Made by a program: the position numbers and the translations under genes | IMG/VR virus record: IMGVR_UViG_3300024313_000004 | Location: 62,001-126,000 of that record | Length of the DNA: 64,000 bases | Origin: a virus | Strand: one strand, 5' to 3' | Notes under the pieces: model-generated | What the model was told of the DNA's origin: nothing | Databases searched by the model: none | The model's input: the letters and a program-made list of their open reading frames with translations, nothing else | Shown: one piece after another, positions 44,388-63,578 of the stretch | Numbering within the stretch: the first letter of the stretch is position 1 | Layout: every line of letters begins with the position of its first letter

Positions 44388-44832
44388 ATGCTATATTTTT
44401 CTCATATGTATCTACATAGAAGTAAACTACTTTATTATCTATAATATGTGGTTTTAAATCGATTTCTGTCGAATTGTCTATAAGTTCCTCTATAACTTTA
44501 CCCATTGGTGTTTCTAAAGTTTTACATCTTAAAGTTAGTTTGTCTATTTTATTATCTTTTAGAATAAAAGACATTGATTTTATAGTAAGTACAGACATTT
44601 GTATCGAAAGAATATTTTCAACATTTCCAAGTTGTACAAACATAGATATTGACTCTACATCAAATTGTATTCTTTTACCAGATTCTAAAACATTTGTTAG
44701 TTTAATATCTCTTTTGATTGATTTCCATTCTTTGTATCTACACATCAAATCCTCAAATTGATCCAAAGTATTGTTGTTTAACAATACTTCGTAATCAAAA
44801 TGTTTTATATCATCATCTAATTCAGATTTCAT
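44386..44832 (-). CDS. Hypothetical protein coupled to RNase R
   Basis: 148 residues. The ATG overlaps the RNase R stop (TAATG at 44830-44834), so translation is coupled. The protein (MKSELDDDIKHFDYEVLLNN...) has a helical N-terminus and a beta-rich C-terminal half (SISMFVQLGNVENILSIQMS, KIDKLTLRCKTLETP). No known family. The tight coupling raises the possibility of a partner or adaptor for the exonuclease. Confidence 0.6.
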   Translation of the reverse strand: MKSELDDDIKHFDYEVLLNNNTLDQFEDLMCRYKEWKSIKRDIKLTNVLESGKRIQFDVESISMFVQLGNVENILSIQMSVLTIKSMSFILKDNKIDKLTLRCKTLETPMGKVIEELIDNSTEIDLKPHIIDNKVVYFYVDTYEKNIA

Positions 44833-46715
44833 TAGAACTTTGTAAAATTTATCTGTTTTTTCTCCAAATCTACAGATTTGACAACAACTTTAATAGGATC
44901 ACCTAATCTTATCTGTTCACCTATTGCACTATATGCAAAGTAATTATCCGAATCTGCCGTCCATTTTCCATTTAATGTTTCTAATCTTATCAATCCTTCA
45001 CACTTATTTTCAGAAATCTCCACATATATACCTCTATCCATTACACCGGTAACGATACCATCAAATACTTGCCCAAGTCTTTCTTGAAGATACTCTGCTT
45101 GTTTATACTTTATAGAATCTCTTTGTGCTTTAGATGCAATCAGTTCTCTACTAGAACACCACTTTGCCTGTTCCTCTATTTTAACAGGATTTCTTTGTTT
45201 ACCATTACTTAGTTTATCGAATAATATTCTATGTGTTATCAAATCTGGATATCTTCTTATAGGAGAAGTAAAATGAGAGTAGTGTGTAAACCCTAATCCA
45301 TAATGTCCTATATTCTGTATAGTATAAGTAGCCTTTGACATACATCTTGTTACCAGTGTTTCAATCATATTTTCTTCAGGTGTTCCTTTTATTTCTCTTA
45401 AAAGTTTATTAAGATTATTTTTCAAAACATCACCATCTTCATTCAATTCAAGTTTATAACCAAAGTTTGTACATATACTTTTTAAAGCGGATAATTTATC
45501 ATTATTCGGTTTATCATGTACCCTATAAACATTGTACCATTGATCTTTTGCTAAAAGTTTCGCAACTGCCTTATTCGCGAGTAACATATACTCTTCGATC
45601 AATTTATTTGCATCTTTTTGTTCTTTGAAATAAACACCTACTGGTTTTTTATCATCTTCGGCAAGTTTAAATTTAACTTCAATACCACCCATTTCGATAG
45701 AACCATTTTTAATTCTAGATTTTCTTATATTTTTCGCAATAGAGTCTAATTGTCTTATTTCCTTGTGGTAATCACCATCAAAACCTTCAATTATTTCCTG
45801 CGCATCTTCATATGCAAATCTTCTATCTGAGTGTATAACTGTTTTCCCATACCAGGTATCTTTAATCTTACCATCTTGTCCAAGTGTGAAAACAACCGAG
45901 AATGCCAATCTATCTACATTTGGTTTTAATGAGCATATACCATTTGATAATCTTTCCGGTAACATAGGTACACATCTATCTACTAAGTAAACAGAAGTCG
46001 CTCTTTTAAATGCTTCTTTATCTAGTTCTGTTCCAAACTTAACATAGTGTGCAACATCAGCAATATGCACACCAACTTTTATATTATTAGGATCCTTCAT
46101 ATCGATAGATATGGCATCATCAAAATCTTTTGCATCAACCGGATCAATAGTTATAGTTGTAACCGATCTCATATCCCTTCTAGATTTGATTTCACTTTCG
46201 GTTATAACTTCCGGAACAAGTTCCGACTCATTTAATACTTCTTGTGAGAAATCTACAGGTAATCCATATTCATACATTATCGCATTCATTTCAGTATTAT
46301 TCTCACCAACAAAACCTAATATCTTAGTAACCTTTCCTCTCGGTGACTTTTTACCAATTTCCCAATCTAAAAAGTCAACTAGTACCTTCTGACCATTCTC
46401 AACTGTAGTATTTCCTTTTATATAGAAATCTACAGAGATTTTTGGATTATCAGGTATAACAAATGTTGTATCTTTTTTAACTTGTGCTGTTCCTACAAAT
46501 TGTGTTTTAAATCTCGAAGTTACTTCTAATACTTTTGCCTCTAACTTACGTTCTCCTTGGAATATCTCTATTCTAACTGTATCTAAGTGAAGTGCATTTA
46601 AAGTTTTTTTCTTATGTACGAAAACTTCTTTACCATCGATTTTAACTCTTGCATTTCTCGATGCAGTGAACTCTATTTGTGATTCAAATATGTCACCTTC
46701 TTTTATTTTATTCAT
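44832..46715 (-). CDS. rnr: RNase R/II-family 3'-5' exoribonuclease
   Basis: 627 residues. N-terminal cold-shock-like beta region (1-180), then the RNB domain with ITIDPVDAKDFDDAISID: D191, D197, D199 and D200 correspond to the four catalytic aspartates (RNase R D272, D278, D280, D281). It continues with HIADVAHYV, ATSVYLVDRCVPMLPERLSN and YGLGFTHYSHFTSPIRRYPD, and ends in an S1 domain (GIVTGVMDRGIYVEISEN). Shorter than bacterial RNase R (~710-810) but catalytically complete. RNase R degrades structured RNA and non-stop mRNAs released by tmRNA. Phage-encoded copies are rare. Coupled to the downstream hypothetical gene by TAATG. Confidence 0.92.
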   Translation of the reverse strand: MNKIKEGDIFESQIEFTASRNARVKIDGKEVFVHKKKTLNALHLDTVRIEIFQGERKLEAKVLEVTSRFKTQFVGTAQVKKDTTFVIPDNPKISVDFYIKGNTTVENGQKVLVDFLDWEIGKKSPRGKVTKILGFVGENNTEMNAIMYEYGLPVDFSQEVLNESELVPEVITESEIKSRRDMRSVTTITIDPVDAKDFDDAISIDMKDPNNIKVGVHIADVAHYVKFGTELDKEAFKRATSVYLVDRCVPMLPERLSNGICSLKPNVDRLAFSVVFTLGQDGKIKDTWYGKTVIHSDRRFAYEDAQEIIEGFDGDYHKEIRQLDSIAKNIRKSRIKNGSIEMGGIEVKFKLAEDDKKPVGVYFKEQKDANKLIEEYMLLANKAVAKLLAKDQWYNVYRVHDKPNNDKLSALKSICTNFGYKLELNEDGDVLKNNLNKLLREIKGTPEENMIETLVTRCMSKATYTIQNIGHYGLGFTHYSHFTSPIRRYPDLITHRILFDKLSNGKQRNPVKIEEQAKWCSSRELIASKAQRDSIKYKQAEYLQERLGQVFDGIVTGVMDRGIYVEISENKCEGLIRLETLNGKWTADSDNYFAYSAIGEQIRLGDPIKVVVKSVDLEKKQINFTKF

Positions 46716-51249: not shown

Positions 51250-52083
51250 ATGAAAAATATAATCACATTTAAAAAATATTTTGAAAGTAAAAATAAAGTA
51301 AATGAAGGTTCTGTTGAATTGTTTATGGCAGGTGTTACTTTATTAGGATTGACTAATTTAGGCTATTGGGCCACCGAAAATATAAAATATTGGACATCTA
51401 AACATGGAAGATATTTCAAAGCTTTAGAAAAAGATAAAGAATTCTTTAAACAATTTGTAGAATTACTTACTACTTATGGTAAAGGAGATCCTACACAAGC
51501 ATTTAGATATATCTTTAGAGGTTTAGGTTTTGAAAAAAAGAAATTTATAGATGAAATTTTTGAATTACCTAGAGCACTTGAGATAAGAGAAAAATTAGGT
51601 ATTAGTGACGATCCAGATTCAACAATGTGGAAAGTAAAATATGATTTTAATGATGCACTTATAAATGGATATGTTGAACGATTCATAGTTAAAAAACTGA
51701 AAAGTATCAAGAGAGACATAAATGAGTCTAAAAATAAGTTTCCTGATGTTAAGAAGATGGATATAGATGGTTTTATAGTTTATATCGGTAAAGATGCAAA
51801 ATCTAATGATTACTTAACATTTAATATGGCTGATGATGAGGATATATGGATGCATGCAAAGGGTGTTCCAGGTAGCCATGTTGTTATCAGAGTTATGGAT
51901 AATCTACCAACAGAAACAACAATTAAAAAGGTTGCAGAACTTGCAAAAAAGAATAGTAAGGCAAAAAGGGAAACTAATGTACCGGTAGTATATTGTCAGA
52001 GAAAGTTTGTTAAGAAAGAACCTGGTATGAATGATGGTCAGGTAAAAGTTGACTATATAAATTCAAATGATATTAATATATAA
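51250..52083 (+). CDS. NFACT-R (RqcH/Tae2-type) domain protein with leader
   Basis: 277 residues. It starts with the leader MKNIITFKKYFESKNKVNEG, then a hydrophobic helix (about 22-41, VELFMAGVTLLGLTNLGYWA) and a helical region to ~165. Residues 170-270 are the NFACT RNA-binding (DUF814) domain: GFIVYIGKDAKSNDYLTF, DIWMHAKGVPGSHVVIR (198-214), ELAKKNSKAK and VVYCQRKFVKK. In RqcH this domain grips the ribosome/tRNA during alanine tailing of stalled chains. The NFACT-N and coiled-coil arms of full RqcH are absent. The 16 nt to the next gene imply one operon with the peptidase. Confidence 0.85.
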   Translation: MKNIITFKKYFESKNKVNEGSVELFMAGVTLLGLTNLGYWATENIKYWTSKHGRYFKALEKDKEFFKQFVELLTTYGKGDPTQAFRYIFRGLGFEKKKFIDEIFELPRALEIREKLGISDDPDSTMWKVKYDFNDALINGYVERFIVKKLKSIKRDINESKNKFPDVKKMDIDGFIVYIGKDAKSNDYLTFNMADDEDIWMHAKGVPGSHVVIRVMDNLPTETTIKKVAELAKKNSKAKRETNVPVVYCQRKFVKKEPGMNDGQVKVDYINSNDINI

Positions 52084-52098
52084 ATAAAATAAAAAGAT

Positions 52099-53454
52099 AT
52101 GGCTGAACAAAAAATAGAGTTCTCAAAAGAACTTACTGAAGTACTAACTAAGTTGGAAAAACAAGGAAATTACGTTGCATTTGAACTTCTTTGGATGACA
52201 GAACCTGATGCTGAATATTTCAATGGTTTAAAGATAACTAAGGTTGATGTATCTAAAGTTGATTGGTGTTTTAATATAACAACAGAAAATGGTGTTAAAA
52301 ACGATATGAAGATTGGTAAATTCATCAGATATTACTTTAAAAATATTATAAATGATTATGAAATAACTAAGTTTTCCAAACTTTATAATAGTTTAAAAAG
52401 TGGTAAACCACATGAAGATGGTAATCCTATAAATGTTGAGAAATTTGTATATTCTCCTAAGGATCCAAGAAAAACATTTTTATCATTGGTAACCAAAACA
52501 TACCCACATGGTAATGAAGATGAGGTTCTACAATTCTTACCTACTTTACAGAAAGATATTATAGGTAATTATTATACTATTATAGGTGGTAACACAAACA
52601 CAATGTTTACTTGTCACTTAGATACCGCAGATAGAACACAAATGACAACAACACTATTCTCTAAAAAAGAAGGTGATGATGAGATTATCGTAACTGATGG
52701 TAATACGGTTTTAGGTGCCGATGATAAATCAGGAACTACCGTTATGCTTTATATGATGGCACATAATGTACCTGGATTATACTATTTCTTTATTGGAGAA
52801 GAAAGAGGTGGAATTGGATCAAACGCACTTGCAGATGTTTATGAAAGTGTAGATTATTTAAAAAATGTTAAAAGATGTATTTCATTCGATAGAAGAAACT
52901 ATAATTCTATTATAACAAACCAAATGGGTACAGAATGTTGTTCTCCTGAATTTGCAGATGCTTTATGTGATGCATATAATGCGAATGGTATGGAAATGAA
53001 ACCTGATAATGGTGGTATTTATACAGATTCTGCATCATTTATCGAAGATATACCTGAATGTACAAATGTTTCGGTTGGGTATTTTAACGAACATACTGGA
53101 AAAGAGAAACAAAATATAACCTTCCTTATTAAACTATGTGAGGCATCAGTAAAGGTAAATTGGGATTCTCTACCTACCAAAAGATCATTAGATGAGATTA
53201 TATCATATAAAAAACAATCATTAGAAGCAAAAAAGAAACATAAAGGTTTATTAGAAGAAGTTAAGAAAACAATTAATTTAGATAGACTTATTTCAGTTGA
53301 TGGTGGTGTAACATATATGTGTCTTGATTTAGAAGGATCTGATATCGATACTATACTTGATTCTTTAAAATCTCTAAAAGAGATAATGAAAAAACATAAT
53401 CTTAGAGAAGAAGTAGTCTTTGATGAGACATATTTAAAAATAGAACTTAAATAA
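52099..53454 (+). CDS. M20/M28-type metallopeptidase (PepT-like)
   Basis: 451 residues. The first ~115 residues are a lineage-specific domain. The metallopeptidase core follows with all expected ligands: CHLDTAD (H173 and catalytic D175), GADDKSG (D208/D209 bridging), GEERGGIGS (E234 catalytic base, E235 ligand), FDRR (D264) and NEHTGKE (H332). The fold is that of M20/M28 two-zinc aminopeptidases, such as peptidase T. It would trim peptides in the cytoplasm; no signal peptide is present. It sits between the NFACT-R gene and the tmRNA. 1 nt separates it from the next gene. Confidence 0.85.
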   Translation: MAEQKIEFSKELTEVLTKLEKQGNYVAFELLWMTEPDAEYFNGLKITKVDVSKVDWCFNITTENGVKNDMKIGKFIRYYFKNIINDYEITKFSKLYNSLKSGKPHEDGNPINVEKFVYSPKDPRKTFLSLVTKTYPHGNEDEVLQFLPTLQKDIIGNYYTIIGGNTNTMFTCHLDTADRTQMTTTLFSKKEGDDEIIVTDGNTVLGADDKSGTTVMLYMMAHNVPGLYYFFIGEERGGIGSNALADVYESVDYLKNVKRCISFDRRNYNSIITNQMGTECCSPEFADALCDAYNANGMEMKPDNGGIYTDSASFIEDIPECTNVSVGYFNEHTGKEKQNITFLIKLCEASVKVNWDSLPTKRSLDEIISYKKQSLEAKKKHKGLLEEVKKTINLDRLISVDGGVTYMCLDLEGSDIDTILDSLKSLKEIMKKHNLREEVVFDETYLKIELK

Positions 53455-53880: not shown

Positions 53881-53914
53881 TTTTTAGGTATTTAGAATAT
53901 TATATATATCTTTG
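53881..53914 (+). promoter_or_regulatory. Bacteroidota-type promoter for the tmRNA
   Basis: TATCTTTG at 53907-53914 matches the TAnnTTTG -7 box, with a T-rich -33 element at about 53881. Transcription would begin near 53920, leaving a ~20-nt leader to be removed by RNase P. Unlike the late genes it uses the host consensus, so early expression is expected. Confidence 0.55.
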
Positions 53915-53939: not shown

Positions 53940-54298
53940 GGGGGTGTCTTAGAATCGCCTAGCAGATTGGTAGTAGTTATGCAGGTATCGGGTTATCTAG
54001 TGTCCGATTAATAAATTAAGAGGTAACGTCGTAAATGGCAAAACAAATGAAGTAGGAACTCGTGAAGACTTAGTAGCGACCCTTAAAGCAATTGGAGTTA
54101 ACACTCCAGAATTGGTATAAGAGAACCAATAAAAAATTTCTCCCAGCTGTATCACACAGACCAAATGTGAAACCCTTTTTGTTAGAGTTTGAGTTAAAAC
54201 TAAATATTTTGTAAGTTTAAGAAAAAACTTTCTAAGCCTGTGAAGATTAGTTATTAACAACTGAGTAGTACATGAGGAGCAGTACCTCATCACCTCCA
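53940..54298 (+). ncRNA. ssrA: tmRNA with a long non-ALAA tag
   Basis: Acceptor stem GGGGGTG (53940-53946) pairs with CACCTCC (54291-54297), giving G3:U70, the alanine identity pair; A54298 is the discriminator and CCA is not encoded (CTA). Near the 5' end TAGAATCGCC stands where TGGATTCGAC is usual. A hairpin ATCGG/CCGAT (53987-54008) has loop GTTATC that pairs with GGTAAC (54022-54027): pseudoknot PK1 just before the resume site. The tag frame runs from GTA 54031 or GGC 54037 to TAA 54118-54120 (starts GKTNEVG, ends VNTPELV). ATTGGT/ACCAAT encloses the stop, and CTAAGCCTG (54232) is the conserved 3' block. The T-arm, ATGAGG-AGCAGTA-CCTCAT, lacks the TTC loop. SmpB is not in the window. Confidence 0.9.
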
Positions 54299-54303
54299 CT
54301 AAC

Positions 54304-54339
54304 GATCTCATTATCATTTGATAATGAGATCTTTTTTTT
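54304..54339 (+). terminator. tmRNA terminator
   Basis: GATCTCATTATC, loop ATTT, GATAATGAGATC, then TTTTTTTT. A perfect 12-bp stem. It overlaps the 3' end of the convergent HNH gene. Confidence 0.92.
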
Positions 54340-55018
54340 CAAACATATTTACCTTACTACATAGAGGTTGTAGATTCGTATAATGATTTAATCTTATTAT
54401 ATCTTCTTCTGTTTCTGCTGAAGATAATGGTATAATATGATCAATTTGCCAGGTTTTTTCGTACTCACCATTATATAAACCGTGATTTTTCCAATCCATC
54501 CAGTTCTCAAACTTAGACTCCAAATAATTTTTAAAATAATCAAATGAACAACCTAATACTTCCTCTGTTTTTGATTTTTTATTGAAACCGCCTTTCCTAA
54601 TGCTATTTGATACCAATGTCCTTATTACACATTTTAATTTAAATAATGGATCTATTTTTTTCCTATATTTTAGATAGTTTCGATGATTTTTTCTAAATCT
54701 ATCTATATTATTATAATAATATTTTCTATTTAACTCCTTATACTTATCCGGGTTTTTAATATATCTTTCTCTATCTTGTTCTTGCTTTCTTTTTTTATTT
54801 TATTCAATTTCTCTATATAATTTATTATTTTTATTTCTCTTTTCTTTATTATTATCTCTATATTCCTTTTCCATTTTTTTATATTTCTCTATATTATTCT
54901 CTCTATATAATTTTATACAAATTTTGCACTCATTTTTAAATCCATCTTTAATTGCATTACTTTTGTGAAATTCATTAAATTCCTTTTCGGTATTACACTT
55001 TTTACATATCTTTATCAT
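54314..55018 (-). pseudogene. HNH endonuclease interrupted by one in-frame stop
   Basis: One frame of 235 codons with a single TAA at 54800-54802. Before it: a C-x-x-C...C-x-x-C zinc ribbon (ICKKC at 4-8, C31/C34) and a Lys/Asn-rich helix. After it the frame continues through a basic linker (NKKRKQEQDRERYIKNPDKY) to the HNH core: WQIDHIIPLSSAE, NHYTNLQPLC and N...K. It is the layout of HNH homing endonucleases in phages. Both halves are otherwise intact, so the break is recent, or the 3' half is translated alone from TTG at 54616. It converges on the tmRNA. Confidence 0.75.
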
Positions 55019-60779: not shown

Positions 60780-63578
60780 TTAGTATAATGTACAAGCAAA
60801 TCTAACTGCTGTTCCGGTTCCGATCGGAGAAGTCGGCATTGTTGAAATATTAGCCGTATTTGTTATTGCAAATGTAGAATCTGATATACCTGTATCATAA
60901 ATTGTTCTCCAAGAAGTACCTGATGGATAAAACCCAACAACTATATCCTCACCAGCAGTAACGTTCAAATTTTGACCTTCCTCTGCAGTTAAATTAATAA
61001 CATTTGGTCCAATTCCTGCAAGAGCACTACCCTGTCCTATTAGTGTTAAACTACCAAAAACTCCTCTATAAATACCAAATAGTACGTTATCACTTCCTGA
61101 GAAACCCCACATTTTAACCTTACTTATAGTCATTGTAACTTCTGCAACTGTTTGGTAGTAATATTGAGTTGTTGCTGCAGTTGGGGCCGTATCACATATA
61201 CCTACATTTATAGGAGAAAATGCAACATTTCTCTGATTAACCCATTGTGTATTATAATCTATAGAATCTATTTTAGATAAAATTTGACCACTTGTTCCTC
61301 CAGATGCCATACTTATTCCCGATGTTCCACTTGTTCCATCAATTCCTGAAGTTCCTGATGTTCCATCAATTCCTGAAGTTCCCGATGTTCCACTTGTTCC
61401 GTCAATTCCTGATGTTCCTGATGTTCCGTCAACTCCTGAAGTTCCCGATGTTCCATCAATTCCTGAAGTTCCCGATGTTCCACTTGTTCCGTCAATTCCC
61501 GATGTTCCACTTGTTCCGTCAATTCCTGATGTTCCTGATGTTCCATCAATTCCTGAAGTTCCCGATGTTCCACTTGTTCCGTCAATTCCTGATGTTCCGT
61601 CAACTCCTGATGTTCCTGATGTTCCGTCAACTCCTGAAGTTCCCGATGTTCCATCAATTCCTGAAGTTCCTGATGTTCCATCAATTCCTGAAGTTCCCGA
61701 TGTTCCACTTGTTCCGTCAACTCCTGAAGTTCCTGATGTTCCATCAATTCCTGAAGTTCCTGATGTTCCATCAATTCCTGAAGTTCCTGATGTTCCATCA
61801 ATTCCTGAAGTTCCTGAAGTTCCTGAAGTTCCATCAATTCCTGAAGTTCCTGATGTTCCATCAATTCCTGAAGTTCCTGAAGTTCCATCAATTCCTGAAG
61901 TTCCCGATGTTCCACTTGTTCCGTCAACTCCTGAAGTTCCTGATGTTCCATCAATTCCTGAAGTTCCTGATGTTCCATCAATTCCTGAAGTTCCTGAAGT
62001 TCCATCAATTCCTGAAGTTCCTGATGTTCCATCAATTCCTGAAGTTCCTGAAGTTCCATCAATTCCTGAAGTTCCCGATGTTCCGTCAACTCCTGAAGTT
62101 CCCGATGTTCCACTTGTTCCGTCAACTCCTGAAGTTCCTGATGTTCCATCAATTCCGTCATTTCCATTTACTACCCGGTTGTAGAAAAATACCCCAGATT
62201 GTCGGTTTATAATAATCTCAACATCGGCTATACTTATTCCAGTATTGGTAGTATTTATTATTATTCTATGTGTAGGTACAATTTCCGGAAAGGGAAGACC
62301 ATATGAGGAAATTGTTTCCTCGAGAGCATCCTTTATTTGTGAATGTTTCTGTCTACCCATCAATAATTTAATAGGATATATTGAATCATTTGTTGCCAAT
62401 AACCAATATGCTATATAAGTGTTATTTGTAGATTCAACTAAACTACCAGTACCGCCTATTCCAATTGGATTGTACATCGCATATGATGATCCTGAAACCC
62501 AAGGATTTGTAGATGGTGTTATCTGAACATAACTATCATTACTATAATATAAAACAGGTATGTAAGCAGTTGGTGATAATATTTGTTGATATGGTGAAGA
62601 TGGTGTAGTATTGTTTGTTATTTCATGTACCAAATCTTCATCTGCAATTTCAATATCTTCTATTGAAAGTGTTGTTTCTTCAGTATCATCTAATGTATAA
62701 TTAATAGCACCACCACTTCTCCAAACAGCACCAACATCTAAATGTTGTGAAAGGTGCCATTGAGTATCTCTATGGGATGCATGTCTTTCATCTCCAAATA
62801 TTACTACTTTAGAGTTTGTGGCATCCCAATAGATATATGATACTAATAAATGTTCTAATATATTAGGTGGATTTCCAATATCTTCTAATAATAAAGTTAT
62901 TGGATTAAATATTATATACCTACCACCACTTGTATTATCTATCGACAATGACTTAGATGTATTTATTTCTATTTCTTCACCCCTATACCAAACAGTATAT
63001 GATGATGAGACTGGATCTATAGTGATAGTTCTATTTGATGCACTAAATGATAAAACACTATCTACTCTATTAACAAATCCTGTCATATCTAATGTTATCG
63101 AACCCACTTCCTCAATGTTTATTGAAGTTCCACTTGTTCCAGAAGTTCCATCAATTCCGCTTGTCCCATCAATTCCTGAAGTCCCACTTGTCCCATCAAT
63201 TCCTGAAGTTCCACTTGTCCCATCAATTCCAGAAGTTCCCGAAAGACCAATCAACATTTTTTCCCAATATGTCATATCTAAATCAGGTGAAGTCCAAGGT
63301 GCATTACCAACCAAGTCTAATTTACACAAATATTGACTACCATTATAAGTAACGGTATCGTAATAAAAATAACGCATATTTGGATCCCATTCACCTTGAA
63401 AAACCATTGAAACCCCATCTGAACCAGTAGGTCCGATTGGTCCGATAGATGAAGTACCTACACCTAAATCCAAAAGATTACCAAATCCATCATAATATGT
63501 GTTTGGTGATCCTAAAGAAACTTGAACTATTCGACCATATGTTGATGATACTGTGGCCCCGGTTAAATTAAAATTCAT
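60780..63578 (-). CDS. Collagen-like tail fibre protein
   Basis: Start taken at 63578 ([20 protein letters not shown]) with box TTTAATATATA 5 nt upstream; 932 residues. A short N-terminal domain with a CBM-like W-x-P-x-x-x-Y-x-x-x-D-x-V-x-Y-x-G-x-x-Y stretch leads to a first collagen-type block (G-T-S, G-I-D triplets), a beta-rich domain (~165-460), a second long block of about 285 residues of G-x-y triplets, then a C-terminal trimer-tip domain ([20 protein letters not shown] ... [14 protein letters not shown]). Gly-x-y trimer rods ending in a receptor-binding tip are typical of adhesive phage fibres. Confidence 0.82.
61313..62167 (-). repeat. Collagen-type G-x-y repeat array, long block
   Basis: About 285 codons of GTS, GID and GVD triplets in a mostly 9- or 15-residue order (GTSGTSGID). 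The DNA repeats (GTTCC, GAAGTTCC, TCAATTCC mixes) are highly similar, so all six frames look open here. Confidence 0.9.
63118..63243 (-). repeat. Collagen-type G-x-y repeat array, short block
   Basis: About 40 codons of the same GTS/GID triplets nearer the N-terminus of the fibre. Confidence 0.85.

Follow-up and report, generated by a model that had tools for sequence, protein, structure and literature searches.

A divergent tmRNA family with long tags lacking the LAA ending in giant Bacteroidota phages

A window of DNA comprising 64,000 nucleotides (positions 62,001 to 126,000 of the IMG/VR virus record IMGVR_UViG_3300024313_000004) contains a locus that is almost certainly the gene of a transfer-messenger RNA (tmRNA), an RNA that releases stalled ribosomes and attaches a tag to the incomplete proteins made on them. 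It belongs to a tmRNA family that a group of giant Bacteroidota phages have in common, a whole clade of phage tmRNAs which escapes the standard detection tools. Long tags are known elsewhere, as tmRNA tags range from 8 to 35 residues (PMC8012679) with 10 as the most frequent length (PMC11915505), and in this respect the family is a variation on known tmRNA tags. New are a tmRNA family missed by standard tools and its long, conserved tag without LAA, alongside phage-encoded Clp components. On balance, we favour a trans-translation run by the phage in which the tag has remained a signal for degradation and has probably been retargeted to a phage Clp protease. The elements of the locus are listed below.

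53884-53914, plus strand: Bacteroidota-type promoter, with TTAG (-33-like box) at 53884-53887 followed by TATCTTTG (TAnnTTTG) at 53907-53914
53940-54298, plus strand: tmRNA gene, 359 nucleotides, CCA not encoded; from the family alignment, covariation and the full-length RF00023 matches of homologues L120 and L143
53940-53946, plus strand: 5' strand of the acceptor stem, GGGGGTG with G3:U, pairing with CACCTCC at 54291-54297; 98.9% of cells paired
53959-53986, plus strand: 5' strand of helix P2, pairing with 54236-54268; 97-100% of cells paired, 8 pairs with compensatory changes
53987-53991 and 54004-54008, plus strand: stem 1 of pseudoknot 1 (PK1), ATCGG with CCGAT; invariant in 25 of 25 copies
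53992-53998 and 54021-54027, plus strand: stem 2 of PK1, GTTATCT with AGGTAAC; 78.6% of cells paired, compensatory changes at 4 of 7 pairs
54037-54120, plus strand: tag frame GKTNEVGTREDLVATLKAIGVNTPELV, 27 codons and TAA; resume codon GGC at 54037-54039, stop TAA at 54118
54053-54084, plus strand: in-tag hairpin, TAGG/CCTT and TCGT/GCGA; the loop GAAGACTTAGTA codes for EDLV
54093-54108, plus strand: second in-tag hairpin, TGGAGT/ACTCCA; from folding of the window copy
54111-54130, plus strand: hairpin P5, ATTGGT/ACCAAT, whose loop contains the stop codon of the tag; pairing across the stop in 25 of 25 copies
54232-54268, plus strand: CTAAGCCTGT block and 3' strand of P2; from the alignment and counts
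54272-54290, plus strand: T-arm with the 6-bp stem ATGAGG/CCTCAT and the loop AGCAGTA; 95.2% paired, 4 pairs with compensatory changes
54304-54339, plus strand: intrinsic terminator, a 13-bp perfect stem with T-run; from the sequence

The RNA was analysed in an alignment of 25 distinct full-length homologues, obtained after duplicate removal from IMG/VR contigs and from the huge phages LR745206 (634,780 bp) and LR756502 (642,428 bp). These two phages were the true relatives found by blastn, and the remaining homologues were collected by pattern scans of IMG/VR. A 15-mer scan returned many unrelated loci, which were discarded with the help of blastn. Weak blastn matches of the 5' end in Lak phages, in LR756504 and in staphylococcal phages were not tmRNA, and those in Bacteroidota phages covered the promoter region only. 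In 84,980 bacterial and archaeal genomes the same core DNA pattern retrieved only unrelated sequences; thus, no host copy was found at this pattern. The structure scored was the RNAalifold prediction to which stem 2 of PK1 had been added by hand. Its pairs were formed in 95.3% of 1418 base-pair cells compared with 87.1% after shuffling, and the covariation score was 0.332 compared with 0.173, values that were reached by none of 500 shuffled alignments in either case. Changes on both sides were found at 23 base pairs. When the partners were slid by 1-3 columns, pairing was 49.2% or lower, a control that leans in favour of the structure because most of it had been derived from the same alignment; more weight attaches to the compensatory counts.

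The ends of the gene, placed at 53940 and 54298 in a preliminary description of the locus, proved exact to the base: the acceptor strands are 53940-53946 and 54291-54297, and A54298 is the unpaired discriminator. The alanine identity pair G3:U, which had also been proposed, is GU in 24 of 25 alignment rows; in the remaining row (L015), which the alignment displaces by two bases, GU appears once the sequence is read from its own GGGGATG. The fifth acceptor pair varies between GC, AU, CG and GU, and the acceptor occurs as GGGGGTG/CACCTCC, GGGGATG/CATCTCC, GGGGCTG/CAGCTCC and GGGGAAG/CTTCTCC. The GTTATC/GGTAAC pairing assigned to PK1 corresponds to six pairs of stem 2, and the 3' block CTAAGCCTG, a helix around the stop, the promoter and the perfect terminator were all found as described. 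The phage RNA resembles Bacteroidota host tmRNAs (RF00023; L173-L175) in gene length, G3:U acceptor, P2 and PK1, and further in a resume codon near base 97, a G-x-x-N tag start and a stop inside P5. It differs from them in the T-loop, which is close to GGCAGTA, and in two extra hairpins within the tag frame. The host genes are detected by ARAGORN and their tags comprise 9-10 codons and end with ALAA, whereas the phage tags comprise 27-29 codons without LAA.

ARAGORN detected no tmRNA in the window and none in 29 homologous loci. In a positive control the program found three Bacteroidota host tmRNAs with the tags GDNNYALAA, GTDYNYALAA and GENNYALAA. The failure is probably due to the T-loop, in which a sequence close to GGCAGTA replaces TTCRANY. 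The latter is usual in bacterial tmRNAs and is a criterion for detection more than a requirement for function. The T-loops of the family are AGCAGTA, GGCAGTA, GGCGGTA, GGCAGTG and similar, and the tmRNA is termed a divergent variant because of this non-canonical loop. Two results speak against the assignment as tmRNA: the canonical TTCRANY was not found in the family, and Rfam yielded no tmRNA match for the window copy even at E<=10. The tmRNA model score, whose absence the preliminary description had named as a refuting result, gave a divided outcome, nil for the window copy in both programs and positive for two homologues, L120 (19.4 bits, E=6.4e-6) and L143 (17.0 bits, E=5.4e-5), both of which match RF00023 over all 374 positions and do not reach the curated score of 47 bits. 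With a relaxed threshold (70%), ARAGORN called the window copy with the correct start and tag, yet it made 61 further calls elsewhere in the window, and for this reason the call is no evidence. Huge phages with tmRNA and SmpB have already been reported, and a 2020 survey assigned the tmRNAs by ARAGORN (PMC7162821); this tool detects none of the copies of the present family that were tested.

The frame starting at 54037 is very probably the tag. It is open in 25 of 25 homologues and the other two frames in none, while the chance that a tag region remains open after shuffling is 0.11 per copy. The resume codon GG[C/A] at the position of 54037 is conserved, with GAC in one copy, and occupies the same place in the gene as the resume codons of hosts do (96-99). 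Of the two starts considered in the preliminary description, 54031 and 54037, only the latter can consequently be retained. The tag lengths among the 25 copies are 27, 28 or 29 codons with the frame kept, so that all length changes are changes of whole codons. The tag core G[KN][TV]NEV[GA][TS]-x-ED[LI]V-x-x-L has the expected host-like G-x-x-N start, as in the three recovered host tags. The window tag is predicted to consist of 27 residues and the alanine from the charged RNA. No sign of recoded stop codons was found in the window, where long frames end with TAA, TAG and TGA.

As anticipated, the tag is roughly three times as long as usual and has no ALAA: the LAA (ALAA) ending, mark of the ClpXP-type ssrA degron, was found in 0 of 25 copies. 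The NYAFA ending of the Mesoplasma-type, Lon-read tag was also absent from the tags of these copies. All 25 copies (19 distinct tags) end in A or V, compared with only 7% of the long open frames on the same contig. The endings are ELV, ATV, MTV, MAV, AMV, VVA, LVA, AVA, VIA, VEA and ETA, and the tag of the window clade ends with PELV. The tag is probably the degron of some protease. From the loss of ALAA the preliminary description had deduced stability, another protease or a localisation as the fate of the tagged products. Stability and localisation found no support, the last residue being always A or V, and another protease is best supported, by correlation only, through the phage ClpP and a ClpC-like ATPase. 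A non-degradative fate, be it stability, localisation or another function, would agree with the complete loss of LAA and is nevertheless improbable, as the constant A/V end and the phage ClpP and ATPase fit degradation. In addition, when the tag peptide was searched elsewhere in the phage stretches examined, only the tmRNAs themselves matched; no phage protein of these stretches contained a similar peptide that would hint at a shared localisation signal.

The tag frame also forms RNA structure. The inner helix of the in-tag hairpin is paired in 98% of cells with compensatory changes at 4 of 4 pairs, and the hairpin makes codons 8-9 and 14-15 change together. Because the in-frame hairpin covaries and couples these codons, the frame serves both the peptide and the RNA structure. 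A hairpin like that at 54093-54108 precedes P5 in most homologues. The added codons could therefore be mainly an RNA element of two hairpins before P5, e.g. for the recruitment of RNase R, a process that requires the 3' portion of the frame (PMC8012679), and the peptide would then be incidental. The covariation of the inner helix and the recurrence of the second hairpin agree with this explanation, but the single open frame, the whole-codon length changes and the third positions, which vary most, render it rather improbable.

In trans-translation, tmRNA-SmpB frees stalled ribosomes and RNase R removes the mRNA (PMC8012679). SmpB is encoded by LR745206, LR756502 and the 476-kb contig G001, near-complete phages that all carry the present tmRNA family, and the LR745206 protein scores above the NCBIfam cut-off. 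RNase R is encoded in G000, G001, LR745206, LR756502 and LR756504, and ClpP in LR745206, LR756502, G001 and the window's own contig. A two-domain Clp ATPase of about 705 residues without the usual N domain is present in LR745206, LR756502 and G001. It has a VGF motif at the ClpP-binding position, which we take to be the place where ClpC binds ClpP. ClpX was not found in LR745206, LR756502, G001, LR756501 and LR756508, and no Lon_C domain was detected in the six phage records searched. As a separate observation, the SmpB of LR756502 (L128) matches phrog_6791, a PHROG family of unknown function (E=8.9e-43). The following genes of the window lie outside the tmRNA.

44832-46715, minus strand: RNase R; TIGR02063 with 623 bits (cut-off 597.85), RNB domain
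51250-52083, plus strand: protein with an NFACT-R domain (RNA-binding domain of RqcH); PF05670, E=5.9e-16
52099-53454, plus strand: peptidase T-like protein, a conserved neighbour; phrog_4191 peptidase, E=5.5e-65, and synteny

From the RNA anatomy, the conserved frame and the partner genes observed in the phages, we infer that the tmRNA is expressed, charged with alanine via its G3:U acceptor and bound by SmpB, and that it enters stalled ribosomes. Translation would resume at GGC 54037, add alanine and the tag peptide, and stop inside P5, and phage RNase R would then break down the mRNA set free in this way. With its small C-terminal A or V kept and LAA lost, the tag would still be a degradation signal, matched not to host ClpXP but to the phage's own pair of ClpC-like ATPase and ClpP. 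This pair is the single likeliest specific fate of the tagged proteins, an assignment which we regard as tentative. More tentatively still, these giant phages may hold a complete, self-contained pathway of trans-translation and proteolysis, made up of tmRNA, SmpB, RNase R, ClpC-like ATPase, ClpP and perhaps the NFACT-R protein, with a tag rewritten for the phage protease and not for host ClpXP. The very divergent T-loop could also indicate a decoy directed at the host, titrating its SmpB or inhibiting its trans-translation, for which a precedent was suggested in the RNA of mycobacteriophage DS6A that contains only the tRNA-like domain (PMC4131195, PMC11915505). The complete mRNA-like part, the conserved frame, P5 and the phages' own SmpB make a decoy highly improbable.

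Other huge phages were compared with respect to tag and protease. The Lak phages and LR756504 belong to the same huge-phage clade (PMC7162821). Lak-A1 and Lak-B5 have the 10-codon tags DDEIDFRMAA and DDEIEFRMAA, which end with MAA, and LR756504 has the 24-codon tag DNVNSFEQSILNELFAPVEMAVAA, which ends with AVAA. All three phages encode ClpX and, like the present family, SmpB; ClpP was found in Lak-A1 and LR756504, as in the present family. In LR756501 (735 kb) the tag GDYKMNAEDMMSIPTSLTGKVATESFVEDLVLA has 33 codons and ends with VLA, and in LR756508 (484 kb) the tag GVNNADYESAGFTAEDFAQMDGESLYHGSERKPAAV has 36 codons and ends with AAV; these two frames were read by eye and not by a program. Both lack LAA and a phage ClpX and differ in sequence from the present tags. 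The tmRNA of LR756508 (L191:1501-1947) has, unlike the present family, a canonical T-loop, and no SmpB match was obtained in this phage. ARAGORN assigned to it the tag GRRKPLSW, which looks like a wrong frame; the 36-codon frame from the usual start is more likely. ClpX was restricted to the genomes with MAA or AVAA tags, a suggestive correlation between ClpX and the tag ending among huge phages.

Some features of these phages were recorded in passing. The ClpX of Lak-A1 (L184) is split by an insert of about 300 residues resembling an intein. In LR756504 a tRNA adjoins the tmRNA (L130:2039-2114), with the four-base anticodon tcta according to ARAGORN; it is possibly a frameshift or stop-suppressor tRNA. 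A match to group I introns (RF00028, E=2.2e-7) adjoins the tmRNA match near the T-loop in LR756501 (L196:1400-1844), whose tmRNA appears to be interrupted by such an intron.

Alternatively, the phage tmRNA could be an ordinary one, with a tag that ClpXP (or ClpC) of the host still recognises as a weaker degron and a long middle part that drifted around the inserted hairpins. Its C-terminal residue is always A or V, the LVA and AVA endings of some copies and AAV of the more distant phage LR756508 resemble known ssrA variants, among which LVA and AAV are weaker degrons (PMC9382460), and the covarying hairpin constrains codons 8-9 and 14-15. This is the next likeliest explanation after retargeting to the phage Clp pair. 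Against it stand the EDLV-type core and the length changes in whole codons, both maintained throughout the family, and the Clp parts that its phages encode themselves. Furthermore, the PELV end of the window clade resembles, to our knowledge, no described ClpX degron.

Retargeting of the tag to a phage Clp protease, the reading we favour, has to be weighed against several findings. The best model for the Clp ATPase is ClpB, below its cut-off, and the label ClpC-like thus rests on the VGF loop. Neither SmpB nor the Clp ATPase was found in the window's contig, which is partial (134,595 bases). The correlation between ClpX and the tag ending comprises few related lineages, and infected cells presumably contain the ClpX and ClpC of the host as well. 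Finally, pN/pS, the ratio of nonsynonymous to synonymous variation, is only 0.60 across the tag (0.39 in the core without hairpin codons), so that part of the conservation is due to RNA structure.

A longer ssrA tag that is read by Lon after a protease switch was reported for Mesoplasma florum (PMC9382460, PMC8138137). The phage tags share the greater length, but the Mesoplasma tag ends with NYAFA and uses Lon, whereas no Lon_C was found in the phage records searched. If the favoured reading is true, the phages would provide a further natural case, beside the mycoplasmas, of a tmRNA tag changing together with its protease. This change would have taken place inside viruses and would be graded across related genomes, from 10 codons ending with MAA and 24 ending with AVAA to 27-36 without LAA.

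The NFACT-R protein was found in 4 of 4 genomes of the present tmRNA family and in 0 of 5 other huge phages tested. Its gene lies between the major capsid gene and the tmRNA, and the order near the tmRNA is NFACT-R protein, peptidase T-like protein and small acidic protein. Among the loci whose upstream sequence is long enough, nearly all preserve this order; L018 is the exception. In the window copy the TAnnTTTG element begins 33 bases 5' of the tmRNA; it occurs 24-37 nucleotides 5' of the acceptor in 19 of 25 copies, most of them with a TTTG-like box about 19 nucleotides farther upstream. The terminator begins six bases 3' of the tmRNA gene, and the other tmRNA copies are likewise followed by a hairpin with a T-run. 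A weak HNH endonuclease-like gene (54314-54616, minus strand) faces the tmRNA at its terminator.
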